64,000 nucleotides of DNA, taken from contig SNWL01000008.1 in the NCBI GenBank assembly GCA_004362315.1, positions 248,001 through 312,000 on the forward strand. Reading direction: 5' to 3'. Source of the stretch: Mycobacterium sp. BK086. GTDB taxonomy: Bacteria; Actinomycetota; Actinomycetes; Mycobacteriales; Mycobacteriaceae. Position numbers and translations under genes: made by a program. The notes under the pieces were generated by a model that was given only the letters and a program-made list of their open reading frames with translations, searched no databases and was not told the origin of the DNA. Positions within the stretch are counted from its first letter, which is position 1. The number at the start of each line of letters is the position of its first letter. Below are positions 45,467 to 62,649 of this stretch, in pieces.

Positions 45467-45585
45467 CCCGACGATTCGGCCGGTTTGGGAAACGGCGGGT
45501 AAACGGGGGCGGAATACATACGTCCTGAGAGTGTGACGTGACCCGATTTAGCCGCACGCTGCTGGGATGACGTTCACCGGATGCG

Positions 45586-45591: not shown

Positions 45592-45597
45592 TTGCGT

Positions 45598-46806
45598 GTG
45601 GGTGTTGTCTCGGTGGCACTGTTGGTCACCGCTGCGGCGCTGGTAGCGCTCGCTTTGGGTCTTGGAATAGGGGCCGCGCTCACCCCACGCATCCTCGAGC
45701 GCAGGCAGCGCCGCGCGATCACCGAAGCCGGCATCACGGTGTCGCAGATGTTGCAGCACGTCGTGTCGCTCGCGCCGATCGGCATGGTGGTCGTCGACTC
45801 CCACCGCGACGTGGTCTTCATCAACGACCGCGCCACTGAACTCGGCCTCGTGCGCGACCGCCAGCTCGACGAGCGAGCCTGGGCCGCTGCGCAGCACGTG
45901 CTGGCCACCGGGGAGGGTGTCGAGGTCGACCTCTCTGCGCAGCCGCAGCGCGCCGCCGCCGGCCGTTCGGGACTCTCGGTTCGCGGACACGTACAGATGC
46001 TGAGCAAGCAGGATCCGCGGTTCGCCGTGGTCTACGTCGAAGACCAGTCCGAGCAGGCGCGCATGGAGGCCAGCCGGCGCGACTTCGTGGCCAACGTCAG
46101 CCATGAACTCAAGACGCCGGTCGCCGCGATGGGTGTGCTGGCCGAGGCGCTGCTGGAGTCGGCCGAAGACCCCGAGACCGTGCACCACTTCAGTCGCAAG
46201 ATCCTCACCGAGTCCCAGCGGCTGGCCAACATGGTCGGCGAGCTGATCGAACTGTCTCGTCTGCAGGGCGCCGAACCGCTGCCGAACCTGGACGGCATCG
46301 ACGTGGATTCCGTTGTCAGCGAGGCGATTTCGCGCCACAAGGTGGCAGCCGACAATGCCGACATCAAGGTGACGACCGACGCGCCGAGCGGCTTCCGGGT
46401 GCTGGGCGATCAGACGTTGTTGGTCACCGCGCTGGCGAATCTGATCTCGAATGCGATCGCGTACTCACCCGACGGGTCGAAGGTGTCGATCAGTCGACGT
46501 CGCCGCGGCGACAACGTCGAGATCGCGGTCACCGACCGGGGAATCGGCATCGCCCGCGCCGATCAGGAGCGGGTGTTCGAACGGTTCTTCCGGGTCGACA
46601 AAGCGCGCTCCCGTGCCACCGGCGGCACCGGTCTGGGGTTGGCCATCGTCAAACATGTGGCGGCCAATCACAACGGCAGTATCCGGCTGTGGAGCCAGCC
46701 GGGAACCGGCTCGACGTTCACCCTGTCCATTCCCGCCTATCCCAACAACGATGACGACGAACCGGCCGACCAATCGGCCATTGACGAGGAGGCACTACGC
46801 CAATGA
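45598..46806 (+). CDS. senX3: Phosphate-responsive sensor histidine kinase
   Basis: The 402-residue kinase has one clear N-terminal transmembrane segment (about 5-28) followed by a PAS domain (about 48-155). The dimerisation domain carries phospho-acceptor His169 in [11 protein letters not shown], and the ATPase domain has N (NLISNAIAY), G1 (DRGIGI) and G2 ([11 protein letters not shown]) boxes. It activates RegX3 when phosphate is low. GTG 45598 is chosen for its leaderless promoter. A TTG at 45592 is an alternative. Confidence 0.94.
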
Positions 46807-47489
46807 CCAATGTGTTGATCGTGGAGGACGAAGAATCCCTGGCCGACCCGCTGGCATTCCTGCTGCGCAAGGAAGGGTTCGAGGCCACCGTCGTCGGTGA
46901 CGGCCCATCGGCCCTTGCTGAATTCGATCGATCCGGCGCCGACATCGTGCTGCTCGATCTGATGCTGCCGGGGATGACCGGCACCGATGTGTGTAAGCAG
47001 TTGCGCGCTCGCTCCAGCGTGCCGGTGATCATGGTGACCGCACGCGACAGCGAGATCGACAAGGTGGTCGGGCTGGAGCTCGGTGCCGACGATTACGTGA
47101 CCAAGCCGTATTCGGCCCGCGAGCTGATCGCCCGTATCCGTGCCGTGCTGCGCCGCGGCAGTGACGCCGAAGACTCCGGCATCGGTGACGCCATCCTGGA
47201 GGCCGGCCCGGTGCGCATGGACGTGGAGCGTCACGTCGTTACAGTCAACGGTGAGCCGATCACCTTGCCGCTCAAGGAATTCGACCTTCTGGAATACCTG
47301 ATGCGCAACAGCGGGCGGGTGCTCACCCGCGGTCAGCTCATCGACCGGGTGTGGGGTGCGGACTATGTCGGCGACACCAAAACCCTTGACGTCCACGTGA
47401 AGCGGCTGCGGTCCAAGATCGAGGGCGATCCGGCCAACCCGGTGCACCTGGTCACGGTGCGCGGGCTGGGCTACAAGCTGGAAGGCTAG
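46803..47489 (+). CDS. regX3: Phosphate-responsive response regulator
   Basis: The 228-residue OmpR-type regulator has the phospho-acceptor Asp52 in LLDLMLPG and a winged-helix domain (about 125-225, [14 protein letters not shown]). It overlaps senX3 by 4 nt (ATGA), so the intercistronic MIRU repeats found in M. tuberculosis are absent. Confidence 0.96.
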
Positions 47490-47507: not shown

Positions 47508-49055
47508 CTAGTAGGCGCCGTCGCCGCTCAAAACGGTCTTGATCGTCTTGACGATGATCACCAGATCCTTGATGGGCGACCAGTTTTCGATGTAGCTGAG
47601 GTCCAGACGGACGGCGTCCTCGGTCTGCAGGTCTGAGCGTCCGCTGATCTGCCACAGGCCGGTCAGGCCGGGCTTGACGCTCAACCGGCGGCGAACCAGA
47701 TAGTCGTACGAGTCGACCTCGCGGCGGACCTGCGGCCGGGGCCCGACAACGCTCATGTCACCGCGCAGCACGTTGATGAACTGCGGCAGCTCGTCGATGC
47801 TGTATTTGCGAATCACCTTGCCGACCCGGGTAACCCGCGGATCGTCCTTGGCCTTCCAGAACATCGGGGTGCTGCCGTCGGCGGCGATCATCGCCGACGC
47901 TCCGGCGTCGGCACCGTCGACCATGCTGCGGAACTTGAGCATCTTGAACGTGGTGCCCCGCAGGCCGATCCGCTCGGAGACGTAGAAAACCGGTCCGGGG
48001 CTGGACAACCGCACGGCCAGTGCTGCGAGTGCGAACAGCGGTGCCACGACGATCAGCGCGATCGTGGTGAACACGATGTCGAAGGCGCGCTTGGCTGCCG
48101 AGTTGGCCCCTTCGTGCTGCGGCTTGGTCACCTCGAACATGGCCATGCCCGCGACCGGCCGGCTGTGCAGCCGGTCCTCGGCGATGTCGACCAGCCCGGG
48201 GGCGATCAGCAGATCCACGCCGAGCGAATCGAGCTCCCAGATCAGCCGGCGGATCTCGGTGGGGTGCAGATGATCGGTGGCCGCCAGCGCGACCGTGTGC
48301 GCCCCGGTGCGGCGCACGGCATCGGCGATGGCCTGGTCGATCCCGACGATGGGGATGGACCGCCCGTCGACGTCGATGCTGTGGTCACGCACTGTCGGCC
48401 CCGCGGGGGTGCAGACCCCGACGACTCGGTACCCAGCACTGGGGTCACGGACGAAGGTTGCGGCAACGTCGGTTGCCGAGCGCGAGCTACCGACCACGAG
48501 CACGGAAACCTGGTGCTCGGCGCGACTGAGTTCGGCGACCGCTACCTTGCGCCAGTAGCGGCGGCTGACCAGCAGGCCGGCCAGTCCGAGCGGGAAGGCG
48601 ATCGCGAGATAGGGGCGCGAGATGTCGACGTGGAACAGCAGCGCGCCGATCGCGATCAGGCCAAACAGCTGCAGGGTGGCGAGCACGACGCTGGTGTACT
48701 CGCTGACGCCGCGGCCGACTGTCCGGCGTGCGCGGTAGCCGTTGAGCCCCAGGGCGCCCATCCACAGCGCAGCCAGCCCGGCCGAGCCCGCGGCGTAAGT
48801 CAGCAGGGCGTCCGGCTGGCCGGCAAACACCACCGCGGTCGCGACAGCCAACATCAAGCTAATAATCGCCGCGTCGGTCAGCACCATCCGCTTGGAGTGC
48901 CGATCATGACGGGCCTCGCGCCGCGAAGCACGAGTTTCGGGCCACAGCGGGGGAATAGTGTTCTCGAAAAATAACGGCGAGGTCGAGTTTTGGCGAAGAT
49001 CTTCATCCCAGTCGTTACCGACTGAGATGTGATTATCAGACTGTTCGGCCAACAC
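47508..49055 (-). CDS. Polyprenyl-phosphate sugar phosphotransferase (WbaP/CpsE-like)
   Basis: The 515-residue protein starts exopolysaccharide synthesis by moving a sugar-1-phosphate to a lipid carrier. It has four or five transmembrane helices (about 55-170), a nucleotide-binding-like central domain (about 175-300), and the C-terminal transferase: KRAFDIVFTTIALIVVAPL, ERIGLRGTTFKMLKFRSMV, and DELPQFINVLRGDMSVVGPRP with PGLTGLWQISGRS at the end. GTG 49055 is chosen because a CATATT box lies 6 nt upstream. A longer ATG frame adds only 24 residues. It converges with regX3. Confidence 0.92.
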   Translation of the reverse strand: MLAEQSDNHISVGNDWDEDLRQNSTSPLFFENTIPPLWPETRASRREARHDRHSKRMVLTDAAIISLMLAVATAVVFAGQPDALLTYAAGSAGLAALWMGALGLNGYRARRTVGRGVSEYTSVVLATLQLFGLIAIGALLFHVDISRPYLAIAFPLGLAGLLVSRRYWRKVAVAELSRAEHQVSVLVVGSSRSATDVAATFVRDPSAGYRVVGVCTPAGPTVRDHSIDVDGRSIPIVGIDQAIADAVRRTGAHTVALAATDHLHPTEIRRLIWELDSLGVDLLIAPGLVDIAEDRLHSRPVAGMAMFEVTKPQHEGANSAAKRAFDIVFTTIALIVVAPLFALAALAVRLSSPGPVFYVSERIGLRGTTFKMLKFRSMVDGADAGASAMIAADGSTPMFWKAKDDPRVTRVGKVIRKYSIDELPQFINVLRGDMSVVGPRPQVRREVDSYDYLVRRRLSVKPGLTGLWQISGRSDLQTEDAVRLDLSYIENWSPIKDLVIIVKTIKTVLSGDGAY

Positions 49056-49215
49056 AGCGAAAATATGCCCTCGGTATCGGAGAACTGCTATTAACTGCAC
49101 CGTAACCCCACTTAGGCCGCAAGGCAACCACTGGGACGGATGACGTCCATCACTTGTTTTGTGCAGAGTGATGCAGATTCAGCAAATAATCGAAAGAAGG
49201 CGCTGCTCGGCGTCG

Positions 49216-50472
49216 TCAGTCCGTGCCGAAGGCGTCGTCATACGCGGCGAACACCGCGGGACGCGAGTACTTGGAAAGAAAGTGTTCGCGGGCCTGCGCC
49301 GAGATCTCGGCGTTGTAGGCCGGGTTGGTCAGCGAGCACAGCTGCTCGGTGAATTCGGCCGGTTCGGCACACACCAGCACGCCGGTGCCGGCGCCGCTGG
49401 CGATGCCCTCAGCACCGATGGGCGTGGACACCACCGGCAGCGCCCGGCCGAGCGCTTCGACCACCTTGAGCTTGATACCGGAGCCGAAACGCACGGGGTT
49501 GACCAGTGCCGCGGCCCCGCCGAGTGCCTCGCCGAGGTCGGTGACATAGCCCTCGATCTGGACGCTGTCGCGCAAGGTCGCCGCCAGCTCGGATAATTCG
49601 GGCCTGGCCTCGCGTCCGATGACTCGGAGCCGGGCACCGGGCAATCGCTCGACAATGCTCGGCCAGGCCGTGCGCAGAAACGAGCGCAGGCCGTCGTCGT
49701 TGTGGGGAAGCGACAGCAATCCGAGGAAGACGAACTCCGGTTCGCCGTCCCAGTGTCGTTGGGGCATGGTCGGTGCCAGGACCAGCGGCGGAACGCTGCG
49801 GATTCGATGTGCCGGCGCACTGGAGCGATCGGCCAGCACGCTGGCCTCGTCGGCGTTGACCAGTAGCGAGCGACGAAACCGGTGCACTGTGCGGTCCTCG
49901 CTGCGCCGGACCAGTGACCGCTCGGCGCGCAGCAGCAGGGTCTGGCTGTGACGGTGAGTGGCCAGCGGACGCAACTTCGCCGGGACGTGTTCGGCGAAAT
50001 TGCCCAACGGGCTGACGTTGATCTCGCCGTAGCGTTCGGCGGCTTCCAGCATGCGGTCGTAGCGCTCGGAGAACAGGTCGTCGAGATAGCAGACCTGGGT
50101 GGCCGCCACCTGGTCGGGAGCGTACTGCGCCATTCGGACCGTATCGTATACCTGCAGTTCAGGACGTATTTTGCCGAGGATCTCGGTGATGCCCGCGGCG
50201 GTCTGCCGGGAGCCAAGGAAGGCTTCCTGCAAGCTGGCCCGCCCGGTGGTGACCTTGGTCATGAGATTGCCGAGGACCTGGCCGCGGCTGGGACCGGGCA
50301 CGACGTGCAGCGGAACCGGAAACTGGTGCTGTGGTGGTGCGCCGACCTTGATGTAGTGCACGTTGTCCTGGCCGTGCCGTTCGCTGAGGTAGTCGATGAA
50401 TCCCGCCAGGACGACCTTCTTACCGGCATCGGTCGGATAGGGGTCGACGGCACTTATCAACGCAACAGCCAC
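49216..50472 (-). CDS. Family 4 glycosyltransferase
   Basis: The 418-residue enzyme has the GT4 C-terminal donor-binding signature (FGSGIKLKVVEALGRALPVVSTPIGAEGI in pieces). It begins with a Rossmann-like SAVDPYPTDAGKKV. It adds a sugar in EPS repeat-unit assembly. Donor and acceptor are unknown. GTG 50472 is preceded by a TAACAT box 6 nt upstream (50479-50484). Confidence 0.85.
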   Translation of the reverse strand: MAVALISAVDPYPTDAGKKVVLAGFIDYLSERHGQDNVHYIKVGAPPQHQFPVPLHVVPGPSRGQVLGNLMTKVTTGRASLQEAFLGSRQTAAGITEILGKIRPELQVYDTVRMAQYAPDQVAATQVCYLDDLFSERYDRMLEAAERYGEINVSPLGNFAEHVPAKLRPLATHRHSQTLLLRAERSLVRRSEDRTVHRFRRSLLVNADEASVLADRSSAPAHRIRSVPPLVLAPTMPQRHWDGEPEFVFLGLLSLPHNDDGLRSFLRTAWPSIVERLPGARLRVIGREARPELSELAATLRDSVQIEGYVTDLGEALGGAAALVNPVRFGSGIKLKVVEALGRALPVVSTPIGAEGIASGAGTGVLVCAEPAEFTEQLCSLTNPAYNAEISAQAREHFLSKYSRPAVFAAYDDAFGTD

Positions 50473-50478
50473 CGCGTG

Positions 50479-50484
50479 ATGTTA
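50479..50484 (-). promoter_or_regulatory. Leaderless -10 box of the GT4 gene
   Basis: On the minus strand TAACAT ends 6 nt before GTG 50472. Confidence 0.45.
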
Positions 50485-50542
50485 GCTAAATTGCGAAAAT
50501 TTGCCATGACGTCTTCTGGCAGCGGTGGTGTAGCCGCCGCCG

Positions 50543-51904
50543 TCAGTTCGGGTAGCAGGTCAGCGCGACCTGCGCCTCCTTCATGTATGCGGGTGCGTTG
50601 ACGCCGAAGAGTCGAAGGATCGTCGGGGCCACCGACGTCAGCGGGATCCGCTCGTCGACCCGGCGAGGTGTGGGGGACTGCACCCAGAAGCAGCCGTCGG
50701 GATGGTGGCGGCCGCTGCGCAGGCTGTGGATGCGGTAGAAGTACTCGTCGAACGGTGCCTGCCTGCCGTCGGGCAGCGTCATCATCGTGCGGCCCTGCGA
50801 CCACTCGTTGATCGCACAGCCGGCCTTGAACCGTGGCCCCTCGGCCTCCTGCATCCGGAACAGCGGCTGGTCGCTGACTCGGCACTCCGTGAGCTGCGCG
50901 ATGGCGCGCTGGGCGGCGGCCTCGTCGGGGAACGACAGCAGGAATTCCTCGGCCATCAACGGCGCCACTTCCGCGCTGGTCATGTCGATGCCGATCAGCC
51001 CGAGCAACTGGTCGAAATCCTTGGGCCGGTAGGTGCACTTCGTCGTGTCCCAGGGCTGCTGGCTCAGTGCGGTCGCGAACACCAGCCGGTCATCGGGGAA
51101 GTCGGCCAGGAAGCGCCCGATGAGCTGGTCATTGTTGCGGTAACCCTCGAGCATCGCGTCCGCCAGGGACGAGTGATCCTCGGGCGGCGACGGCAGCGAG
51201 AAGATCTCGGGTCGGAAGTTGCGCCAGTAGTAGTGCTGAAGGTGGGCCGTCGAATTCGAGAAGAAGGTGGCGAACGCGACGTTGTGGCGGCGCACCAGAT
51301 TGCGAAAGACGTCGTAGGACATGGCGTCCAGGGCGAAGGAGCGACGCCATTTCACGCCGGGATCGCGCCGTTCACCGAGGAGCTGCTGCACGGTGGACAA
51401 CGCGGTGGCCGGCGTCAGGCCATGTGTCGCGAGGTATCTGGCGAACGGGAGTGCGGCCCGCTTGTCGAGTTGATCGGCGGAATTCTCCTGCACGGCAGAC
51501 ACCACGAAGTTGGTGAACGCCTTGATATCGGCGGGATGCGGCGACAATTCCGCATTCCACGGGTCGGGTATGACGAAACCGTCGAGCGGTCCGTAGTCGA
51601 GGTTCATCGAGCCGAAGACGCCGACCTTGAATCCGGCGGCGGCCAGTTCGCGAGCGATCCCGCGCCCGGCGACCAGATCGGCTTCGCCGAGATGCTGGAT
51701 ACCGTGATCGCGGTCCGGGATACCGGTGTGCAGCGTCGGCCACTGAACCCACGGCTCGAGGTTGATCTCGTTGGCGGCGTCGGTGACGAAGACTTCCGAG
51801 GAGTCCCGCAGCTTCCGGAAATTCGGCAACTCGCCCGCGTCGATGAACTCGTCGATCAGAGTCGGACTCAACTCGTTGAATTCGATCTGAATTGTCCGTC
51901 GCAT
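50543..51904 (-). CDS. Alkaline phosphatase-superfamily enzyme (type I phosphodiesterase-like)
   Basis: The 453-residue protein has features of the metal-dependent NPP/sulfatase/phosphatase superfamily. WPTLHTG (55-61) offers nucleophile Thr57, H221-L-Q-H224 resembles the HxxQH metal site, and EFNELS at the start corresponds to the first metal-ligand strand. No signal peptide is visible, so it may act in the cytosol. In an EPS locus it could transfer or remove phosphate, sulfate or a phospho-substituent. ATG 51904 follows GGAG by 7 nt. An in-frame GTG is 12 nt earlier. Confidence 0.75.
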   Translation of the reverse strand: MRRTIQIEFNELSPTLIDEFIDAGELPNFRKLRDSSEVFVTDAANEINLEPWVQWPTLHTGIPDRDHGIQHLGEADLVAGRGIARELAAAGFKVGVFGSMNLDYGPLDGFVIPDPWNAELSPHPADIKAFTNFVVSAVQENSADQLDKRAALPFARYLATHGLTPATALSTVQQLLGERRDPGVKWRRSFALDAMSYDVFRNLVRRHNVAFATFFSNSTAHLQHYYWRNFRPEIFSLPSPPEDHSSLADAMLEGYRNNDQLIGRFLADFPDDRLVFATALSQQPWDTTKCTYRPKDFDQLLGLIGIDMTSAEVAPLMAEEFLLSFPDEAAAQRAIAQLTECRVSDQPLFRMQEAEGPRFKAGCAINEWSQGRTMMTLPDGRQAPFDEYFYRIHSLRSGRHHPDGCFWVQSPTPRRVDERIPLTSVAPTILRLFGVNAPAYMKEAQVALTCYPN

Positions 51905-52126
51905 CGGCAACTCCACCCCGTAGGTCCTGGCGTGAAGATAGCACGAGCGTGGCGACGTCGAGATGTGCCGAGGATGCTGTCCAAAGTTCGCCGGGCCGAC
52001 GCGCCAAACAGCAGTCGTCCCAGTTCAGACGGCGCTGTATTGTGTCCAACACCCGAAGACATCGGTAACGAGAAAATTGTCTCGGCGCCAAGTTGCACAT
52101 GGCGCGGCGAGACTGAAGGACGGGAT

Positions 52127-52750
52127 ATGACCAAGCATCGCAGGACGATCGCCGTCTTCGCGTTCGTCGGCGCCATCCTCGGAGCGGCACTGGGATTCTT
52201 TCTGGCCCCGCAACCGCACTGGTACCAAGCGTCGGCCAACGTCGCGCTTCTCCCGGCACCCGATCTCACCACCGAGCAGTCCTCGGCGTTCTGGGAGGTG
52301 CTCACCCGCGGGCAGGTCAGCAGGACGGCCGCGGTGCTGTACAACGACGGCCGCTGGATACCGTCGGCGGCCACGGCGGCGAAGGTGCCCCAGGCCGATC
52401 TCTCGCTGTCCGCCGCGGCCCTGCCCGATACGACGATCGTGGTCGTCACGGTGGTGGCGCATTCGGCAGGTGCCGCCGAGGCGGGTCTCAACGACGTTCT
52501 GAACAAGGCCACTCCCGAAGTCGCGTCGCTGGCCGCGCCGTATGCCGTGAAAGTGATGTGGCCGCCGCAGAACAACGCCCTTCCCCTTCCGAGCCCGCGC
52601 CGCTCACAGATCGCGGCCGCGGTGGCGCTCGGCGGACTGCTCATCGGCGGCGGCGTCGGCTGGATCGTCGCCCGATCGCGAGATCGCCGCGATGACACCG
52701 CATCTCGTCGGACCGGCCCGATCCGCGAAGAGGTGCGACCCGGGCTATGA
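52127..52750 (+). CDS. Wzz-like chain-length determinant family protein
   Basis: The 207-residue protein has two transmembrane helices (about 8-27 and 168-190) flanking an extracytoplasmic domain, then a short basic tail. This is the polysaccharide co-polymerase layout. There is no tyrosine-kinase domain. The C-terminal end of the next protein repeats the same layout. It is divergent from the phosphatase-like gene and overlaps the polymerase gene by 4 nt. Confidence 0.7.
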   Translation: MTKHRRTIAVFAFVGAILGAALGFFLAPQPHWYQASANVALLPAPDLTTEQSSAFWEVLTRGQVSRTAAVLYNDGRWIPSAATAAKVPQADLSLSAAALPDTTIVVVTVVAHSAGAAEAGLNDVLNKATPEVASLAAPYAVKVMWPPQNNALPLPSPRRSQIAAAVALGGLLIGGGVGWIVARSRDRRDDTASRRTGPIREEVRPGL

Positions 52751-54762
52751 CCGGCCCGATCCGCGCCACGCCTCAATCCGGCGAACTTGCGGCGATGGCC
52801 CTCGTCGGTGGTGCCGCGACCGTCGCGGCGGTGGTGATGTTCGGTTCGCGCAGCCCGTTGTTCGTGATCGCCGCGCTGATCGGCGGTGTCGGGCTGGTGT
52901 ACGCGGCGCGGCGACCGCTTCTGGCACTTGTCGCGATGGTTGCCATCGAGGCCAGCAACCTGTCGGGTGTGCTGGAGCAACACGGCAATGTCCCGGTGTT
53001 CCAGGCGTCGATGGCGCTCGGACTTCTGGCCGTCGTTCTTGGCCTGCGTGATTCGGAGTTACGCGCGCGGCTCAACGTCTGGACGGTGATCTGCGCCGGA
53101 CTACTGGCTGTGTTCCTGGCGACGCAGATGGTGGCCGCGATCGGCAGTGCCGATCTGGCGGCGTCGCTTTCTTCGGTGCGCCGCACCGCTATCGACCTGC
53201 TCTTCCTGATGCTCGTTCTGATGCTGGCTCAGATGACGGCGCGGCCGTGGACCGTCGCGATCACGATCGTCACGGTGCTGGCGCTGCTGTCTGTACTGAC
53301 GGTGATCGACTTCGTCGTCTTCGGTGGCACCAACTCGTTCGGCGGATTCTCCATCGTCACAACATCTTCGGGTGAACTGGTCACCACGCCCCGATACGGC
53401 GGACCGCTGCCGGACTCCAACTTCTGGGGCAGGCACCTGATAATGGGCCTGCCGCTCGCGGCGGCCCTGTTGACACGGTCACTGCGGGCGTCGGACCGGC
53501 GGGCCGTGACCCTGGTCGCCCTGTCGATTCTTGCGTTGCTGGCCGGCATCTACCTGACCCAGTCGCGCGGCACGTTCCTGTCGGCCGGCATCGCAATGGT
53601 GGTGTGGTTCATCGCTTCTGAACGATCCATCCGGCGGTGGGCGCTGGTCGCCCTGCCCGCGGTGTTCGCATCGTCGTTCGTTCCCGGCATCGGCAACCGC
53701 CTCCAGGACATGTTCCAGCAGATCAGCCAGGGCGACGAGAGCAGCCACGTGGACCCGTCGCTGCTCGGCCGGTTGGCCGCCCAGGAACAGGCCGCCATGA
53801 TGTGGTCGCAGCGGCCCTATTTCGGGTTCGGTCCCGGTACGTTCGCCGGTGAGGTGATCAACTTCGCCGGGCGGGTGTCGACGGCGGTTCGGGAGCCGAA
53901 TCTGGCCGCGCACAACCTCTATCTGTCGCTGCTCGCTGAGACCGGGGTCTTCGGTCTCATCGGGTGGACGGTAATGGTGGCCGGTTTCTTGGCCATCATC
54001 GTCTTGCGGATCATCGCGCAGCCGCGCTCGGCCGACCGGGTTCTGGTGGCCGCACTGGCCGCGGCGATCGTCGGATGGTCGGTATCCAGTGTCGGGCTTC
54101 ATCTCTCGTACTTCCGCACCTTCGCATTGGTGCTGGCCATGGTGGCGGCGGTCGCGCCGCAGTGGCCGGTTTCGGCCGAGATCGTGCGAAGGTTCCTGCG
54201 CAACGCCGGGATATGGCTGGTGGCCACGGCTCTGGGCGGAGCGTTCTTCTGGGCCTACCTCACCGCGAACAGCACCTCGGTGTTCCGGGCCAGCCAGCAC
54301 ATGACGCTGGTGCCCGCGCAGCCCCCCGACGGTTGGTATGCATACGCCCTCGATGTCCGGTCGAGGATCGAGATGTTGCCCACCATGGGAAGAGTTCTGC
54401 GCGACGGGAATTCGCCGGTCACCATCGAGGCCGACGCCGTACGCGGACTTCTCACCTTCACCGCCGAGGCGGACAGCGCGGACCAGGCTCGCGACGAGGT
54501 GCAGCGCGCCGCGGCGGTCGCGGGTACCCGGTTGAGTGAGGTGAACGGCTACGACCAGTACCTGCTGCAGACCGTCGGCAGCATGCAGATCACGCAGACC
54601 AGCGATCACACGAACACCACGGTCTTCGTCGCCGTTGCCGTCGGCATCGCCGGTGGACTGGTGACGGGTATGTCGTTGTTCGCGATGATCGGTGGCAGGC
54701 GTACCGATGATCAGGATTCCGTGACGCAGTCGTCGACAGACGATCGCGTTGCCGCCGAATGA
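52747..54762 (+). CDS. Wzy-type polysaccharide polymerase/ligase fused to a Wzz-like hairpin
   Basis: The 671-residue protein has about 11-12 transmembrane helices in residues 14-480, with the large loop containing SQRPYFGFGPGTFAGEV and NLAAHNLYLSLLAETGVFG, the O-antigen ligase/polymerase signature. Beyond it, a helix (488-505), an extracytoplasmic stretch (about 508-625) and a last helix (628-649) repeat the topology of the preceding 207-residue protein. It would join repeat units or ligate the chain. The fused hairpin is uncommon. Confidence 0.85.
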   Translation: MTGPIRATPQSGELAAMALVGGAATVAAVVMFGSRSPLFVIAALIGGVGLVYAARRPLLALVAMVAIEASNLSGVLEQHGNVPVFQASMALGLLAVVLGLRDSELRARLNVWTVICAGLLAVFLATQMVAAIGSADLAASLSSVRRTAIDLLFLMLVLMLAQMTARPWTVAITIVTVLALLSVLTVIDFVVFGGTNSFGGFSIVTTSSGELVTTPRYGGPLPDSNFWGRHLIMGLPLAAALLTRSLRASDRRAVTLVALSILALLAGIYLTQSRGTFLSAGIAMVVWFIASERSIRRWALVALPAVFASSFVPGIGNRLQDMFQQISQGDESSHVDPSLLGRLAAQEQAAMMWSQRPYFGFGPGTFAGEVINFAGRVSTAVREPNLAAHNLYLSLLAETGVFGLIGWTVMVAGFLAIIVLRIIAQPRSADRVLVAALAAAIVGWSVSSVGLHLSYFRTFALVLAMVAAVAPQWPVSAEIVRRFLRNAGIWLVATALGGAFFWAYLTANSTSVFRASQHMTLVPAQPPDGWYAYALDVRSRIEMLPTMGRVLRDGNSPVTIEADAVRGLLTFTAEADSADQARDEVQRAAAVAGTRLSEVNGYDQYLLQTVGSMQITQTSDHTNTTVFVAVAVGIAGGLVTGMSLFAMIGGRRTDDQDSVTQSSTDDRVAAE

Positions 54763-55736
54763 GACGTGCCGGCAAGGCTGTTCACCATTGGTCTAGCAGC
54801 AGATCGGCGCGGTCGGTCACCGCGGTGGTCGCCATCGTGATCGTGGTTGTGGCGGTGCTTGCCGGGCGGGCGGCGTGTTCGAGCCCTGCCCATGACTGGC
54901 TGGCCAATCCGTTCGCAGCCGAGAGCCCTTGGCGGACAGCGATTCCACAGGATGCGGGGGTCGACCCGAACAGTGCGGCCATGATCGGCTACGTGCAGTC
55001 GACCCGCGGCGTGTTCGCCAACATCGTGGAGTTCGGCATTCCGATCTTCTCGGTTGGCCCGGATACCCCCGCCTACGCGGTGAAATGCTCAGGCCCCGAG
55101 TGGGGAGTATGCCCTTTCGCCGGCTGGCCGGTACCGATTCCGTATGGGGCGAAGCCCAATTCGGGCTCCGATGGGGTGATGGTCACCGTCGACGAGGCCA
55201 CCTCGACCATCTTCGAGTTCTGGCAGGCGGCCAAGAGCGGCAATGACTGGTCCGCGCAGTGGGGCGCTGTCAACAGTCTGCGCGGGTCCGGATGGGGTGG
55301 CTCGGCAACGGGATCGGGTGCGTCGCGGCTCGGCGGCGTCATCCGGGTCGCCGAGATCAGTTCAGGCGTGATACCGCATGCGCTGGCCCTGCAAACCAGC
55401 AACGCCTGCAAGACCTTTCGGCCGCCTGCACTGAAGTCCGATGGCAAGTCGGCCCGGGCTGACTGCCTGCCCGAAGGCGCTCATCTGCAACTGGATCCGT
55501 CTGTCGACCTGACCAAGCTCGGCCTCACCAAGGGGGAGCTGGCGGTTGCGACGGCCATGCAACGCTACGGCGGCTATATCGTGGATGTCGGGGGCGCACC
55601 ACTGAGCATGAGCTTCGAATTCGAAGCCTCGGCCAGCCCGCCCGCGCTCGGCAAGACCTACCAAGCCGCGGGATTCCGTTGGGATTACGACCCGATGGAA
55701 CGCATCCCGTGGGAGAAGCTTCGGGTGCTGAGCTGA
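54759..55736 (+). CDS. Exported protein of the EPS locus, possibly polysaccharide-acting
   Basis: The 325-residue protein has an N-terminal signal anchor (about 20-40). The rest is a soluble beta-rich region with a conserved-looking core: VIPHALAL, LPEGAHLQLDPSVDL and MQRYGGYIVDVGGAP. This pattern recalls secreted actinobacterial proteins of polysaccharide-lyase-like fold, from memory only. It overlaps the polymerase gene by 4 nt and so belongs to that operon. Confidence 0.6.
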   Translation: MRRAGKAVHHWSSSRSARSVTAVVAIVIVVVAVLAGRAACSSPAHDWLANPFAAESPWRTAIPQDAGVDPNSAAMIGYVQSTRGVFANIVEFGIPIFSVGPDTPAYAVKCSGPEWGVCPFAGWPVPIPYGAKPNSGSDGVMVTVDEATSTIFEFWQAAKSGNDWSAQWGAVNSLRGSGWGGSATGSGASRLGGVIRVAEISSGVIPHALALQTSNACKTFRPPALKSDGKSARADCLPEGAHLQLDPSVDLTKLGLTKGELAVATAMQRYGGYIVDVGGAPLSMSFEFEASASPPALGKTYQAAGFRWDYDPMERIPWEKLRVLS

Positions 55737-55776
55737 CGCGGTTCGCGCAAGCGCTTATCGGCCCTAGAAGTGCTGC

Positions 55777-55782
55777 TATCGT
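55777..55782 (+). promoter_or_regulatory. Leaderless -10 box of the FkbM gene
   Basis: TATCGT ends 6 nt before GTG 55789. Confidence 0.45.
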
Positions 55783-55788
55783 GCACAA

Positions 55789-56613
55789 GTGGCCCTCAAG
55801 CACGCCGTGTACGACGCCGTCAATCGACCTTCGACCCGCTGGTTGCTCGGCCTCGCGGCGTCGGCGAACGCCACCCTCGCCGGTGACCGCGCGCTGTTCA
55901 CCTACGACCGGCAGACCGGGGATTGGCTGAAGCGGACACGCGCCGGTGCGATGCTCCTGCCCGACCTTCGTGGCGGCGAGGGGATGGACGCCGCGCAGTG
56001 TGACGCGTTCGCGCGAGAGGTGTTCCTACCCGAATACGCGATTCGGCCCGGCGACGTCGTTCTCGACGTGGGGGCGGGGATCGGCACAGAGGCGCTGCCG
56101 TTCTCCCGCATGGTCGGCGACTCGGGCCGGGTGATCGCCATCGAGGCGCACCCGACGACCTACGCCAAGCTCGCACGCGTGTGCCAGGCCAACAACCTGC
56201 GCAACGTCGAACCGATCCACGCCGCGGTGATGGACACCGAAGGAACGGTGAAAATCACTGACCTGCAGGCGGAGTCGTATCTCGAGAACAAGATCGGCGA
56301 CGAGGGGGTGCCCGTCGCGGCGGTCACGATCCCCGGGCTGGTCGCCAAGCTGAAGCTGGATCGCATCGACTTTTTGAAAATGAACATCGAAGGCGCCGAA
56401 CTACCTGCCCTGCGAGGTGCTCTCGACGTGCTGCCGATCGTCCGCCATGCGGCGATCGGGTGCCATGACTTCCTCGCCGACGAAACCGGCGACGAGTCGT
56501 ACCGCACCAAGGATGCAGTCCACGCGATATTGGTCGACGCCGGTTTCACGGTCACCTCGCGGTCGGACGATCCGCGTCCGTGGGCGGCCGGGTACCTTTT
56601 CGCTTCGCGCTGA
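55789..56613 (+). CDS. FkbM-family methyltransferase
   Basis: The 274-residue protein has the SAM-binding VVLDVGAGIGTEALPF (about 86-101), VIAIEAHPTT, and the FkbM LDRIDFLKMNIEGAE motif. FkbM enzymes O-methylate sugars or polyketides, and in this locus a sugar of the repeat unit is the likely target. Confidence 0.88.
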   Translation: MALKHAVYDAVNRPSTRWLLGLAASANATLAGDRALFTYDRQTGDWLKRTRAGAMLLPDLRGGEGMDAAQCDAFAREVFLPEYAIRPGDVVLDVGAGIGTEALPFSRMVGDSGRVIAIEAHPTTYAKLARVCQANNLRNVEPIHAAVMDTEGTVKITDLQAESYLENKIGDEGVPVAAVTIPGLVAKLKLDRIDFLKMNIEGAELPALRGALDVLPIVRHAAIGCHDFLADETGDESYRTKDAVHAILVDAGFTVTSRSDDPRPWAAGYLFASR

Positions 56614-56676
56614 AGCCCGCCGCTCTATGATGGCCGTGAAATGGCTGCGGCTCCAGGCTGATCGGGGACTCTTCGG

Positions 56677-58326
56677 GTGGGACAGGGCGAGGATCCGACC
56701 ATAGCCGGGGACAGTCGCGATCGCATCGGGGACGAGCCGCCCGCGGCACCGGAATCGACTCCGCAGACCGGCCGGCAGGCTGCGTGGAACTACTTGGTCT
56801 TCGGTCTGAGCAAGAGCTCGACGCTGATCATGACGATCGTGGCGGCGCGGCTTCTCGATCCCGCCGATTTCGGTCTGTTCACGCTCGCACTGCTGGTCGT
56901 CAATCTGTTCGACTACATGAAGGATCTCGGGGTCGGCGCCGCCCTTGTCCAGAGTCCGGGCAAGTGGGACCGGCTCGCCCCGACAGGGTTGACGCTGTCC
57001 GCGATCTTCGGTGTCATCGCCGGAGCGGCCCTGGCTGTCTTCGCCCCTTATGGTGCCGAGCTGGTCCGCCAACCGCAGCTGACGCCGCTGATCCGAGTAC
57101 TGGCCATCGGGCTCACCATCTCGGCTTTCAGCGTGATTCCCGCCGCCCGGCTACGGCGCGATCTCGACTTCCGGCAGCGGATCTGGCCGGAGTTCGTGGG
57201 CTCCGCGGTCAAAGCGATACTCACCATCGTCCTGGCCGCCGCCGGGCACGGTGTGTGGAGCCTCGTCTGGGGCCAACTCGTCGGGACCATCTTGACGACG
57301 ATCCTGTACTGGGTGGTTGCCCGCACTCCGGTCGTGTTCGGCTTCGATCGCCAGCAGGCGCGAAATCTCATCCGCTACGGATCAGCGCTGACCGGCGTCG
57401 CGCTGCTCAGCTTCGCGATGTTCAACACCGATTATCTGTTCATCGGCATGCGCCGCGGTGACGAACAGCTGGGTCTCTACACCTTGGCCTACCGGCTGCC
57501 CGACTTGCTGGTGCTGGCGCTCTGCAACGTGATCAGCGAGGTACTGTTCAGCTCTCTGTCGCGACTCCAGCATGCCCGCGAGCGTCTTTCGGAGCATTTC
57601 CTCCAGGTCATGGCCGTCACGATGGCGCTGAGCGCACCGATCAGCGTCGCCCTTGCCACGGTGGCGCCGGCCGTTGTGGGCACCCTGTACGGTCCCCAAT
57701 ATGCCGGTGCCGCACCGGTACTCATGGTGTTGTCCGTCTACGGTCTGCTGTTCTCGGTCTCCTGGCATGCCGGTGACGTGTTCAAAGCCATTGGTAGACC
57801 GTCGCTTCTCCTCGCGACAGGCACCGGCAGGCTCGGACTCATGGTCGGCCCGGTCTGGTGGGCCGCAGGACACAGCATCGTGGCGGTGGCGTCGGTGCTG
57901 GTGGCGGTCGAGACGGTGCTCCTCATGGTGAACACCGTGTTGTTGCGGAGGATGGGGGGAATCACCCCCGGCCAACTGTGGAATGCGGTGGGACGGCCGT
58001 TGCCCGCGGCGGCGGGGATGGGCGTCGTCATGCTCGCGCTCGCGTATCTGATGGCCGGACTGCCGGATCCGCTTGTCCTTGTCGTCGCCGGGGTGGCGGG
58101 TGTGCTGACCTACATTCTCGGGTTGCAACTCAGTGCGCCGAGCCTGTTCGAAGCGGGACTCGCGGTGGTCCGGTCCGTCCGCGGACACAGCGCCGCGGAA
58201 TCGGCGAGTTCGGCTGTCGCACAACCTGGCAGCAGCATCGTCGTCACCATCCTTGTCGTGTTCGGCCTGTCACCGGTCATCGCCGCCGTCAACGGCGTTC
58301 GGCAGCTGTTGGGAGGTTCTCGGTGA
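56677..58326 (+). CDS. Wzx-type polysaccharide flippase
   Basis: The 549-residue protein has a soluble N-terminus (1-40) and about 12-14 transmembrane helices of the MATE/MOP polysaccharide exporter family (AAWNYLVFGLSKSSTLIM, then GSALTGVALLSFAMFNTDYLFIG). It flips lipid-linked repeat units across the inner membrane. The GTG start follows CTTCGG without a clear ribosome site. It overlaps the next gene by 4 nt. Confidence 0.88.
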   Translation: MGQGEDPTIAGDSRDRIGDEPPAAPESTPQTGRQAAWNYLVFGLSKSSTLIMTIVAARLLDPADFGLFTLALLVVNLFDYMKDLGVGAALVQSPGKWDRLAPTGLTLSAIFGVIAGAALAVFAPYGAELVRQPQLTPLIRVLAIGLTISAFSVIPAARLRRDLDFRQRIWPEFVGSAVKAILTIVLAAAGHGVWSLVWGQLVGTILTTILYWVVARTPVVFGFDRQQARNLIRYGSALTGVALLSFAMFNTDYLFIGMRRGDEQLGLYTLAYRLPDLLVLALCNVISEVLFSSLSRLQHARERLSEHFLQVMAVTMALSAPISVALATVAPAVVGTLYGPQYAGAAPVLMVLSVYGLLFSVSWHAGDVFKAIGRPSLLLATGTGRLGLMVGPVWWAAGHSIVAVASVLVAVETVLLMVNTVLLRRMGGITPGQLWNAVGRPLPAAAGMGVVMLALAYLMAGLPDPLVLVVAGVAGVLTYILGLQLSAPSLFEAGLAVVRSVRGHSAAESASSAVAQPGSSIVVTILVVFGLSPVIAAVNGVRQLLGGSR

Positions 58327-59450
58327 CCGAACAGAACCACGCACCGACGCGAGTGCTGATGATCCTGGACTCGTACAACTTCGGCGGTGCCGAGAACCTG
58401 ATCGCCGAACTCGGCCGTTATGCGCCTGCGGCACTTGATGTGTCGGTCGCAAGCCTGGCACCGCAGGAGAGCAACCGCAATGCCCTGTACGGACGGTTGG
58501 CTGATGCGAACCTGAATCCGACCTACATCTCGGTGCGAAAGTTGTTGGATCCCCGTGGTTTCGTTCGGCTGGTGCGGGCGCTGCGCCAGGCGCACGTCGA
58601 CGTGGTCCATGCTCATCTCGGGTATTCGGCGACTCTGGTCCCGCTCGCCGCCCGACTGGTAGGCCTGCCGGTGGTCGCCACCCTGCACCTGAGCCCGCAA
58701 CCCCACTCGAGCCGAGGTGAATGGTTCAAAGAGCTTCTCTCGGTGCGGATCCCGGCTCGACTGGGCCGGATCGTGCTGGTGTCCCAACATGCTTTCGACC
58801 AGTATGCCAAGAGATACGGCCCGGCCCGCTCCACCTGGCGGGCGATCCCCAACGGGGTGGATGTCGGCCGCTACACCGTTCGCAGCGGCGCCCGCGCCAC
58901 CGATCGACCGGTGTGGGCCGTTGTCGCCGCGTTGCGTCCGGACAAGAACCACGTCGACCTCATCAAAGCCTGGGCCGGGGTCGTGGCCGTGCATCCGTCC
59001 GCCAAACTGTTGGTGGTCGGTGACGGGCCCAGTCGCGCGGATATCGAAAATGCCGTTGCGGTAGCCGGATTGGAGGACTCGGTGGAGCTACTGGGCCGCC
59101 GCGAGGACGTACCCGACATCCTGGCGACCGTCGACGGCGTGGTCTCGGCGTCAGTCGACGAAGCGCTCCCGACCGCATTGATCGAGGCTGGTGCCTGCGG
59201 CCTGCCGGTGGTGGCCTCCGACGCAGGCGGAACCCGGGAGATCGTTGTCGACGGCGTCACCGGGCGGCTGGTACCCCTTCGTGACGTTCCTGCACTCACC
59301 GACGCACTTCTGGAGGTCATCGGAAACCCCGAACTGGCAGCCACATTCGGCGCTGCGGGGCGGACCCAGGCCGAGGACAAATACTCGATGCGCACGTGGG
59401 TCGACAGTCTCGACCATCTGTATCAGGAGGTCATCGGTGAACGCGCCTGA
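58323..59450 (+). CDS. Family 4 glycosyltransferase
   Basis: The 375-residue GT4 enzyme begins MILDSYNFGGAENLIAEL-like and has the donor motif EALPTALIEAGACGLPVV (E-x7-E). GTG 58323 overlaps the flippase stop. It overlaps the following glycosyltransferase gene by 14 nt. Confidence 0.9.
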   Translation: MTEQNHAPTRVLMILDSYNFGGAENLIAELGRYAPAALDVSVASLAPQESNRNALYGRLADANLNPTYISVRKLLDPRGFVRLVRALRQAHVDVVHAHLGYSATLVPLAARLVGLPVVATLHLSPQPHSSRGEWFKELLSVRIPARLGRIVLVSQHAFDQYAKRYGPARSTWRAIPNGVDVGRYTVRSGARATDRPVWAVVAALRPDKNHVDLIKAWAGVVAVHPSAKLLVVGDGPSRADIENAVAVAGLEDSVELLGRREDVPDILATVDGVVSASVDEALPTALIEAGACGLPVVASDAGGTREIVVDGVTGRLVPLRDVPALTDALLEVIGNPELAATFGAAGRTQAEDKYSMRTWVDSLDHLYQEVIGERA

Positions 59451-61818
59451 CCGGGCCGTGCCTGCGCCGTTGACGGTGGCGCACGTGATCCACTCTCTCG
59501 GATCAGGCGGCGCCGAGGCGGTATTGGTCGATCTTGCCCGCGCGGCCCCGTCGGCGGCGATACGCCTCGTCGTCATCGGGCTTTCTGATGCGCACTCCGA
59601 GGGGGCCGTGGACAACCGGGCCGTCCCACTGCTGCGCGAGCAGGGCGCAACTGTCTACGAAATGCACTCGGGGCGTTATGATCTCACCGCCGTCATACGA
59701 TTGGCCAAGGTGCTCAGAGACGAGCGCGTCGATATCGTGCACACCCACCTGAAGCACGCCGACCTGGTCGGCGGGCTAGCGGCCCGCCTGGTCGGGGTTC
59801 CGTCGGTCTCGACTCTGCATGTCATCGACATCCCGAAGTCCCGGGCGTCCCGGTTGCGGGTCAAGGCGGCGGTCGTCGGCCGCCGGTTCCTGTCGCGCGC
59901 GGTCATCGCCCTGTCCAGCGCCCAACGACGATGGTATGCCGAATACGCCGGCGCGGCGGCCCCGATCGTGGTGTTGCCCAACGGTGTTGTCGAACCTCGG
60001 GTCACCCGCGACCGCGCGGCGATCCGCGACGAGATCGGGGTACCCGAGGGCCACCTGCTGGCCGTCTGCGCGAGTCTGATGCGGCCGGAGAAGGGTCATG
60101 CCGACCTCGTCGAGGCGGTACGGCTGCTTACCGCCGACGTGCCCGTGGTCGTCGCCCTTGCCGGCGACGGCCCGCTGCTGGACGAGATCCAATCATCGGT
60201 GGACTCCGATCCTTCTCTTGCCCAACGGGTTCGGATCCTCGGATTCCGCGGCGACGTGCCAGACCTCATCGCGGCCGCCGACTTCGTCGTCCAACCCTCG
60301 CTGGAGGATGCCCTACCCACATCGCTCATCTCGTCGCTGGCCGGCGCCCGGCCGATCGTGGCGACCAACGTCGGGGGCATCCCCGATATCGTCGGCCCCG
60401 GCTGCGGGCTCCTCGTGGCGGCGGGACAGCCCGCTGCGCTGAGCTCTGGAATCGCCGATATGGCAACGACGATCCAGACCGACCCCGGCCAGCTCGCCGC
60501 AATGGAGCGCGCCACCCGCGAGCGCTACGACACCACCTACAGCGCCGACGTCTGGGTGCAGAACCTGCGCGCGCTCTACTCCCAGGTACTCCGGCGCGAC
60601 AACGCGCGAGCACCGCAATCTGTGGTATTGGTGGAGTTTCCGCCGTCCGGTGGCCTGTACCAATTCTCGCTTCAGCTCGGTGAGGCGCTGGCACGCGCCG
60701 GTGACAGCGTGGAGCTCGTCACCGGCCCGTCCCCTGAACTGGGCTCTCGCGAACTCGGTTGCCGCGTCCTGTCTATCCTGCCGACCTGGCACCCCACGGC
60801 CGGCGCGGCTCTGCCGGAACTCTTGCGTAAGGGCCGCAGGGTGATTCGGGCCGGTCGGCACACCGCCGCCTGGGGTGTCCTGCTGGCGCACCTGATCCGT
60901 ACCCGGCCCGACGTGGTGGTGTGGTCGGCCTGGCGGTTCCCGAGCGACGGCTGGGGTGTGCGTGCGGTGCGCAAGGTCATCCCGAATGCCTTGTTGGTCT
61001 TGGTGGCTCATGAACCGCGCGCGCTGGTCGAGCAACCCGGCCAGGACGGCCTGTACAAGACATCGCCGCTCATGACGCGGGCGCTGGGTCCGGCCTACGC
61101 CGATCTCGACGCCGTGTTCGTGCTCGGGGAGTCGGCGAAGCGCATCCTGCTGGAGACGTGGCCGGTGACCGCACCGGTCCACGTGATCCCGCACGGCGAC
61201 GAAGGGATCTATGCCTCGGCCACCATGCCGAGCCCGGCCGCCACCGGTCCGCAAGCGCTGTGCTTCGGCACGGTCACCGCCTACAAGGGCATCGACACCC
61301 TGTTCAAGGCCTGGCCCGCGGTACGGGCTCAACTCCCCGACGCCGAACTGGTGGTGGCCGGCGCGCTGGGTCCCGACATGGACGAGTCGGCGCTGCGTGC
61401 CGATGTCGCCCAGCTGTCCGGGGTGCGGCTGGAGCTCGGGTATATCCCCGTCTCGGACGTGGCGTCCTACTTCGCGCCCGCGCGCTGCGTGGTCCTTCCG
61501 TACAAGCGCAGCTCGCAATCCGGTGTGGCACACCTGGCATACACGTTGGGCCGGCCCGTTGTCGCCACCAGAGTCGGGGACATCCCGGTTGTGGTCCGCG
61601 ACGGGATCTCCGGAATCCTCGTCGAACCCGATGACCCCGATTCACTGGCCGCCGGGCTGATTCGGCTGCTGACCGATCCCGCGCTCGCGGAGACCATGGG
61701 CAAGGCCGGCGAACAGAGCCTGGCCGGGGTGTCGTGGGACGAGGTCGGAACCCAAGTCCTGGCGGCTCTGTCAGACGCCCGAAAGGCGCGGGGCGCAACA
61801 GGATTGGCGCAGCGTTAG
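59437..61818 (+). CDS. Two glycosyltransferase domains in one protein
   Basis: The 793-residue protein is two GT4 enzymes in tandem. Domain 1 (about 12-385) starts VAHVIHSLGSGGAEAVLVDL and ends in EDALPTSLISSLAGARPIV. Domain 2 (about 395-785) starts VVLVEFPPSGGLYQFSLQL and ends SGVAHLAYTLGRPVVATRVG. It probably adds two successive sugars. GTG 59437 has CAGGAGG 6 nt upstream. No break in frame or codon use marks the join. Confidence 0.88.
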   Translation: MNAPDRAVPAPLTVAHVIHSLGSGGAEAVLVDLARAAPSAAIRLVVIGLSDAHSEGAVDNRAVPLLREQGATVYEMHSGRYDLTAVIRLAKVLRDERVDIVHTHLKHADLVGGLAARLVGVPSVSTLHVIDIPKSRASRLRVKAAVVGRRFLSRAVIALSSAQRRWYAEYAGAAAPIVVLPNGVVEPRVTRDRAAIRDEIGVPEGHLLAVCASLMRPEKGHADLVEAVRLLTADVPVVVALAGDGPLLDEIQSSVDSDPSLAQRVRILGFRGDVPDLIAAADFVVQPSLEDALPTSLISSLAGARPIVATNVGGIPDIVGPGCGLLVAAGQPAALSSGIADMATTIQTDPGQLAAMERATRERYDTTYSADVWVQNLRALYSQVLRRDNARAPQSVVLVEFPPSGGLYQFSLQLGEALARAGDSVELVTGPSPELGSRELGCRVLSILPTWHPTAGAALPELLRKGRRVIRAGRHTAAWGVLLAHLIRTRPDVVVWSAWRFPSDGWGVRAVRKVIPNALLVLVAHEPRALVEQPGQDGLYKTSPLMTRALGPAYADLDAVFVLGESAKRILLETWPVTAPVHVIPHGDEGIYASATMPSPAATGPQALCFGTVTAYKGIDTLFKAWPAVRAQLPDAELVVAGALGPDMDESALRADVAQLSGVRLELGYIPVSDVASYFAPARCVVLPYKRSSQSGVAHLAYTLGRPVVATRVGDIPVVVRDGISGILVEPDDPDSLAAGLIRLLTDPALAETMGKAGEQSLAGVSWDEVGTQVLAALSDARKARGATGLAQR

Positions 61819-62649
61819 TTACTCCGCGGCGCGGGTGGCCGGGTGGATGGCAAGCAGTCCCAATCCCGCCCGCCGTTTGCACATGGCCGCGAGTTCCGCG
61901 TAGGCCTTCTCACCGATCAGCTCGGTCAGCTCAGGGCCGTAGGACTGCCACACCTGCTTTTTCCCGACGTGGGCCCCCGGATCGCCTGTGCAATACCAGT
62001 GCAGGTCCAAACCGCCTTCGCCCCAGCCACGCCGGTCGTATTCGGTGATCAGGGTTTTGAGCACCTCGCTGCCGTCGGGCCGGGTGATGCGCTCCTGGAC
62101 GCGACGGATCGGAAGCTGCCAGCAGATCTCGGGTTTCATCGTCAGCGGCTCGACGCCGAGTTTGAGTGCCTTGGTGTGCAGCGCGCAGCCGATGCCCGTC
62201 GGGAAGCCCGGCCGATTCAGGAAGATGCAGGCGCCCTTGTACTTGCGGGTGCGCAGTGCGGGCTCGTCGTCGTACTCGTCCTGTTCGAGGTAGCCCTTGC
62301 GGCCCAGCCCCTTCTCCCGGAACTGCCAATCGTCGTCGGTCAACTGTTTGACCGCCTCGTCGAGGTTGGCGCGGTCGTCGTCATCGGACAGGAACGCTCC
62401 GTGCGAGCAGCAGCCGTCGTCCGGGCGTCCCTCGACCGTGCCCTTGCAGGCCGGCGTCCCGAAGACACACGTCCAATGCGACAGCAGCCAGGTCATATCC
62501 GCGGCGATGAGATGTTCTGGATCGTCCGGGTCGTAGAACTCGACCCACTCGCGCGGGAAGTCCAGTTCGACCTCGCCTGGGTGCCCATGTGTCACAGCGC
62601 CCAACGGTAGTCCACTTTCGCGCAGCCTTCTCGCCGGCTTTTGTGCCAT
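61819..62649 (-). CDS. Conserved protein (Rv0495c-like, DUF3109)
   Basis: The 276-residue protein has a cysteine-rich segment ([17 protein letters not shown] at about 60-85) and later CALHTK and CWQLPIRR, suggesting metal binding. It is a conserved mycobacterial protein of unknown function. ATG 62649 is chosen; a GTG further in would drop 18 residues. It is convergent with the EPS block and marks its end. Confidence 0.88.

Follow-up and report, generated by a model that had tools for sequence, protein, structure and literature searches.

A 64,000-nucleotide stretch of the Mycobacterium sp. BK086 genome (the window) carries a polysaccharide locus at positions 47508-61818, flanked by regX3 on the left and an Rv0495c-like gene on the right. 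Our data indicate that it is very probably a Wzx/Wzy-dependent heteropolysaccharide locus at a variable chromosomal site of mycobacteria; functional statements here and below are all drawn from homology, predicted fold, and gene neighborhood. The defining parts of such a locus, namely an initiator, a Wzx flippase, and a Wzy polymerase, were each found, and a Wzz-type co-polymerase was recognized by profile comparison and fold, with the Pfam Wzz match itself falling below the cut-off. Since seven locus genes have Pfam matches with E < 1e-15 and related genes co-occur in other genomes, the locus is not a product of chance. The first-pass annotation of this DNA had proposed a complete Wzx/Wzy locus between these two anchors, and indeed the initiator, glycosyltransferases (GTs), FkbM-family methyltransferase, Wzx, Wzy, and co-polymerase are all present there. 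Its count of five glycosyltransferase domains holds if the initiator is included; otherwise, there are four GT-B domains besides the initiator. Two locus genes, ALP (50543-51904) and sec (54759-55736), were absent from that annotation.

Gene content and proposed pathway

The genes form a leftward group (gpt, GTa, and ALP) and a rightward group (wzz, wzy, sec, MT, wzx, GTb, and GTcd). Domain calls are from Pfam and NCBIfam, and the features are as follows.

47508 to ~49055, minus strand: gpt, polytopic phosphoglycosyltransferase, WbaP/WcaJ-like initiator (PF02397, E 1e-66; TIGR03025, E 1.6e-121, over cut-off); start codon uncertain
49216-50472, minus strand: GTa, GT4-type glycosyltransferase (PF13692, E 4.3e-21; TIGR03087, E 6.5e-31, below cut-off)
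50543-51904, minus strand: ALP, alkaline-phosphatase/phosphodiesterase-superfamily-like, accessory (PF01663, E 0.0037, below cut-off)
51905-52126, no strand: divergent intergenic region separating the two groups (direct reading of the sequence)
52127-52750, plus strand: wzz, stand-alone minimal polysaccharide co-polymerase (PF02706, E 0.017, below cut-off; profile comparison)
52747-54762, plus strand: wzy, polymerase fused to a C-terminal Wzz-like domain (Wzy_C, E 3.2e-20)
54759-55736, plus strand: sec, probable polysaccharide-cleaving enzyme with phage-tail relatives, membrane-anchored or secreted (PHROG 17388; Foldseek)
55789-56613, plus strand: MT, FkbM-family methyltransferase (PF05050, E 1.5e-16; TIGR01444, E 3.1e-26)
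56677-58326, plus strand: wzx, MOP-family flippase (PF13440, E 6e-69)
58323-59450, plus strand: GTb, GT4-type glycosyltransferase (PF00534, E 2.7e-33, scanned as the longer open reading frame 57858-59450)
59437-61818, plus strand: GTcd, two GT4-type domains in one chain (PF13692, two stretches, E 1.8e-50)
45592-46806, plus strand: senX3, upstream of regX3
46803-47489, plus strand: regX3, left anchor, outside the pathway (PF00072/PF00486)
61819-62646, minus strand: Rv0495c-like gene, right anchor, outside the pathway (conserved across the genus)

The rightward genes overlap or nearly touch, with successive gaps of -4, -4, 52, 63, -4, and -14 bases, and the end of GTcd at 61818 directly abuts the Rv0495c-like gene at 61819 on the opposite strand. 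The protein of this right anchor had no match in the Pfam scan, and its Rv0495c-like name follows the first-pass annotation. The search of ALP against the sequences of solved structures gave nothing better than E 0.58 in the PDB, and we left this gene as accessory. No tRNA gene occurs in the window, and hence none lies beside the regX3-Rv0495c site. The GC content over 47.5-62 kb is 63-70% (1-kb steps) and the flanks are alike, so a foreign signature is not clear.

In the pathway that we propose, Gpt would place a sugar-1-phosphate on polyprenyl phosphate, and the four GT-B domains would lengthen the glycan to a repeat unit of perhaps roughly five sugars, one of which the FkbM-family protein would methylate. 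Wzx would then flip the repeat unit and Wzy would polymerize the units outside the membrane, with chain length presumably set jointly by the C-terminal co-polymerase domain of Wzy and the stand-alone protein whose gene lies just upstream. The Sec protein, secreted or anchored on the outer face, may cut or trim the polymer, which could either be held as a capsule or shed as an exopolysaccharide (EPS).

The predicted structure of Wzy comprises a WaaL-like fold (residues ~56-472) and a Wzz-like C-terminal domain (residues ~476-654). The profile of the stand-alone Wzz matched this C-terminal domain with an hhalign probability of 96.3 (E 1.5e-9). Its Wzz-like fold was also matched by structure, a comparison in which unrelated domains score about equally, and the model of the fused domain is without a long helical hairpin. 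In the model, Wzy thus joins a WaaL-like fold to a minimal Wzz-like domain, a stand-alone relative of which is encoded just upstream. In the enterobacterial common antigen system, WzyE and WzzE form a single complex at a ratio of about 1:8 (PMC10030265). The polymerase is physically tied to a Wzz co-polymerase in both systems; the enterobacterial pair consists of two proteins, whereas here the polymerase itself carries one Wzz-like domain, with a relative of that domain encoded just upstream. Such a fusion would make the Wzy-Wzz stoichiometry testable within a single polypeptide. The same arrangement bears on another reading, in which the product is a short-chain glycolipid or a glycan attached to another molecule and the "Wzy" is a WaaL-type ligase that moves the flipped oligosaccharide to a lipid or wall acceptor. 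We consider this improbable, since the protein carries a Wzz-like domain of its own and follows a second Wzz-like protein, and since co-polymerases accompany Wzy polymerases, as in the WzyE-WzzE complex (PMC10030265).

The first-pass annotation noted the lack of an outer-membrane exporter and of a Wzc kinase, and this was borne out: a genome-wide search for the Wza-type exporter family PF02563 gave zero matches at E <= 0.01, and no Wzc kinase was found among the genes called in 47508-61818. Of the two hallmarks of Gram-negative group 1 capsules, a Wza exporter and a Wzc kinase in the locus, neither was therefore found. The Wzz family PF02706 has two matches in the genome (open frames of 516 and 495 aa), both at other loci. 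Four LytR-CpsA-Psr proteins are encoded in the genome, none of them in the window; these proteins might attach the polymer to the wall.

Variation and exchange at the regX3-Rv0495c site

With the aim of comparing gene order around regX3 across the genus, a check proposed with the first-pass annotation, we searched 148 genomes for both anchors. The regX3 product matched in 146 of them at E <= 1e-100 and the Rv0495c-like protein in 146 at E <= 1e-40; both anchors were found in 145 genomes, on the same contig in 137 and on different contigs in 8 (one genome with regX3 and without an Rv0495c match was excluded, and a two-copy genome contributed one pair). The 137 intervals vary widely in length: 50 are shorter than 500 bases, 31 span 3-6 kb, 41 exceed 5 kb, and the longest reaches 42 kb. 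A Wzy_C gene lies in 15 of the 137. These account for 15 of the 147 Wzy_C matches listed (E <= 1e-5; 7 fall short of the curated cut-off), compared with 0.17 expected under an even spread over 148 genomes of an assumed 5.6 Mb. Because related genomes are not independent, this comparison gives an idea of how large the excess is but does not serve as a statistical test.

The 15 Wzy_C-bearing intervals fall into four layouts. Six are of the window's kind (A), and one (kind B, G035) has a different gene order and divergent homologues. Kind C comprises four intervals (G077, G021, G049, and G119), each with a PF02397 match inside; the Pfam scan of G077 gave Wzx, Wzy_C, three GT proteins, and an aminotransferase. 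Kind D also comprises four (G090, G112, G137, and G067), with no PF02397 among the matches listed; in G090, Pfam revealed Wzy_C, Wzx, Wzz, a GT2, a WecG-family GT, two methyltransferases, an epimerase, and a pectate-lyase-like protein. One member each of kinds C and D was scanned with Pfam, and the others were grouped by interval length and reading-frame layout. In four relatives (G053, G018, G024, and G098), gpt is the sole gene at the site, and the intervals measure 1753-1805 bases. The remaining 26 of the 41 intervals longer than 5 kb have no Wzy_C match; those that were fetched were assessed from reading-frame lists and comparison with the window proteins. Collectively, these intervals point to regX3-Rv0495c as a variable site with replacement of entire polysaccharide cassettes, and it also houses other large gene sets. 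In eight genomes (G050, G088, G092, G147, G071, G117, G122, and G107), the interval measures 33-42 kb and no Wzy_C match is listed for it. In three genus genomes, a protein of ~2400 residues is encoded next to regX3 (L155:865-8085; L154 from 4195 and L158 from 4090, both on the minus strand).

Exchange in place is seen in two named species. M. rhodesiae JS60 (L056) carries kind B and M. vinylchloridicum (L041) carries kind A, and the two are 97.0% identical over the 4.5 kb up to regX3 and 91.3% identical in gpt. Beyond gpt, their similarity is limited to pieces of 153-1141 bases with 69.5-79.4% identity, and identity returns to 93.2% over the last 2.0 kb of the right flank. A DNA tree of gpm1, senX3, regX3, the Rv0495c-like gene, and ppx (14 rows) joined them with support of 100/100 and placed the window strain next to the pair, which are its nearest named relatives by flanks among those rows; some deeper forks of this tree are not settled. 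The same tree rejected a grouping of the eight kind-A rows into one clade (p-AU 6.1e-63), and on it the A label changes at least 5 times, 3 of the changes being forced by starred branches. Since sister species carry different cassettes between near-identical flanks, the cassettes have been exchanged in place: either the JS60 line gave up kind A for kind B, or its relatives made the opposite switch. The simplest route would presumably be recombination in the conserved gpt and Rv0495c-like genes. Pneumococcal and enterobacterial capsule loci likewise sit at a fixed address, with different cassettes swapped between conserved flanks; in contrast to those, the exchange here is between mycobacterial species and beside regX3, and the site also holds gene sets free of Wzy_C.

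The first-pass annotation had pointed to the adjacent phosphate regulator, and one could therefore suppose that SenX3-RegX3 regulates the locus in the phosphate response, which would explain its place beside a regX3 gene that is conserved in the genus. Our data lend no support to phosphate control. The gpt and regX3 genes lie tail to tail, and this Wzy, found in 20 genomes, is inside the interval in 7 (six of kind A and one of kind B) and elsewhere in 13. A scan with a single PHO-box-like motif (<= 3 mismatches) returned 9 sites in the window versus 5.5 in plain shuffles; two of them (47696 and 54780) lie within cassette genes, and none was found with this motif in the cassette intergenic stretches, 51905-52126 included. 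Moreover, the 26 long intervals without Wzy_C argue that the site is not specific to such a product. Control by RegX3 through a PHO-box-like repeat is thus unsupported by the motif scan, and we consider regulation improbable as the reason for this location. A repeat with 3 mismatches was seen at 45572, just upstream of the senX3 start, which would fit autocontrol of senX3-regX3, in a scan that was overall near chance.

Distribution of the locus in the genus and beyond

Mycobacterial surface research focuses on lipids, arabinogalactan, lipoglycans, and alpha-glucan, and we saw no Wzx/Wzy polymer of mycobacteria among the open-access papers listed, in keeping with the earlier suggestion that the polymer may be undescribed there. 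The locus is not an oddity of one strain. This Wzy was found in 20 of the 148 same-genus genomes at E <= 1e-10 (window's genome included). Wzx/Wzy-type parts are frequent in the genus: of the 148 genomes, 106 encode Wzy_C-family proteins and 111 a PF02397 initiator.

A Wzy alignment run against named genomes yielded 198 relatives, of which the best 80 were kept and 51 analyzed (L041-L091); the other 29 (L092-L120), at 23-32% identity and with titles nearly all from Bacteroidota, were dropped. The 51 loci overlap with the 20-genome set, so the two counts are not additive. They come mostly from Mycolicibacterium/Mycobacterium, Williamsia, and Pseudonocardia, with single loci from Gordonia, Smaragdicoccus, and Kitasatospora and a few from actinobacterial metagenome-assembled genomes (MAGs). 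At >= 40% coverage, matches were found to wzy in 51 loci, wzz in 50, GTcd in 48, GTb in 47, wzx in 45, sec in 44, GTa in 42, gpt in 30, MT in 13, and ALP in 6, where the GT matches may be paralogous GT4 genes; the anchors regX3 and Rv0495c-like were visible in 8 loci each, within the 10 kb fetched on either side. Among the 42 loci of at least 20 kb, wzz, wzy, GTb, and GTcd were present in 42 each, wzx in 41, sec in 39, GTa in 38, gpt in 27, and MT in 11. One locus at the regX3 site, that of M. litorale F4 (L043, ~5.8-13.2 kb), has no gpt match, an ALP in two pieces, and a Sec whose C-terminus is longer and aberrant; it looks like a decaying copy.

Wzx/Wzy-dependent EPS clusters (imp and wps-1 to wps-3) have been reported in another actinomycete, Actinoplanes missouriensis, with clustered sugar transferase, GT, Wzx, Wzy, and Wzz genes as in our locus; in the passages of that report that were consulted, Wzy and Wzz are separate proteins and no cassette-exchange site is described (PMC13390465). 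Within the BK086 genome, two more sites (G000:C6, ~156-159 kb and 538-561 kb) pair Wzy_C with Wzz-family matches; at the second, the Wzy_C match is below cut-off and a PF02397 gene lies nearby. These sequence matches suggest that the genome holds further polysaccharide loci besides 47508-61818.

The Sec protein and its phage relatives

Sec has 325 residues; a hydrophobic helix occupies 18-39 at the N-terminal end, and the domain that starts at ~50 is well predicted (model pLDDT 88.0). It showed no Pfam family at E <= 1, a best PDB match of E 0.06 in the sequence search of solved structures, and zero matches at E <= 0.001 in the PDB fold search; resemblance to an MltA/expansin-like double-psi barrel was too weak to use. 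Predicted viral structures gave a different picture. Foldseek matched Sec to the minor tail protein of Gordonia phage Guillaume (E 1.9e-20, TM by query 0.68) and to four further viral proteins at E <= 0.001, one of which bears the name parallel beta-helix repeat protein. The sequence search matched 64 phage records at E <= 1e-3, all 64 from Gordonia phages, with 26-29% identity among the matches listed (40 rows); Gordonia terrae 3612 and G. rubripertincta NRRL B-16540 are the hosts for 55 of the 64. The PHROG 17388 "minor tail protein" profile covers Sec residues 50-292 (E 2.7e-19) and matches 41 of 47 Sec relatives at E <= 0.01. Sec and minor tail proteins encoded by Gordonia phages are homologues. 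These phages infect Gordonia and not mycobacteria, and one Gordonia MAG (L088) holds a related locus.

Residues D138, E199, H207, D228, and D276 are invariant across 15 host and phage Sec sequences; among 47 host sequences, D138, H207, and D228 remain invariant, and E199 and D276 are kept in >= 90%. A strict lipobox occurs in 5 of the 47, and the window's copy is without one. In other loci, CBM60 precedes a Sec-like domain in 5 of the 7 long proteins scanned (E 2.5e-13 to 7.7e-21), two Pseudonocardia proteins fuse it to a right-handed beta-helix, and in Smaragdicoccus it stands beside an fn3 domain (just below cut-off). A Pfam scan of three phage tail proteins bearing the Sec domain found no family at E <= 0.05. 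Because Sec matches occur in 55 of 296 genomes of the class, the domain is not tied to the polysaccharide locus. Five plasmid records also match at 28-37% identity, the best (E 9e-16) being from Tsukamurella and annotated as carbohydrate-binding.

On analysis of these relationships, Sec is most likely a polysaccharide-cleaving enzyme. There is a parallel in Pantoea stewartii, whose stewartan cluster is a Wzy-type EPS cluster with a secreted protein, WceF, that resembles phage tail proteins, has a tailspike-like fold, and hydrolyzes the EPS; WceF is a trimeric right-handed beta-helix, whereas the predicted Sec fold differs and a beta-helix is fused in only some relatives (PMC7949094). Sec might instead bind the polysaccharide and keep the polymer at the cell surface, with phages adsorbing through the same fold. 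This alternative, which we hold to be possible rather than probable, gains from the annotation of the phage relatives, most of which, among the 40 rows listed, are labeled as minor tail or hypothetical proteins, from the CBM60-bearing relatives, which fit adhesion equally, and from the fact that known catalytic folds gave no significant match. If Sec does found a new enzyme family, this could explain the function of a set of Gordonia phage minor tail proteins.

We tentatively extend the cleaving-enzyme reading to a wider picture, in which environmental mycobacteria may bear serotype-like surface polysaccharides, their Wzx/Wzy cassettes being exchanged at regX3-Rv0495c under phage pressure, and in which Sec may represent a new polysaccharide-cleaving family that trims the cell's own polymer and helps actinobacteriophage tails to penetrate. 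A species-swapped Wzx/Wzy polymer, if real, would give mycobacteria a surface antigen that varies, as well as a candidate receptor or barrier for phages. In a kind-D locus (L138:3701-5092), a pectate-lyase-like protein (PF12708) is perhaps the counterpart of Sec.

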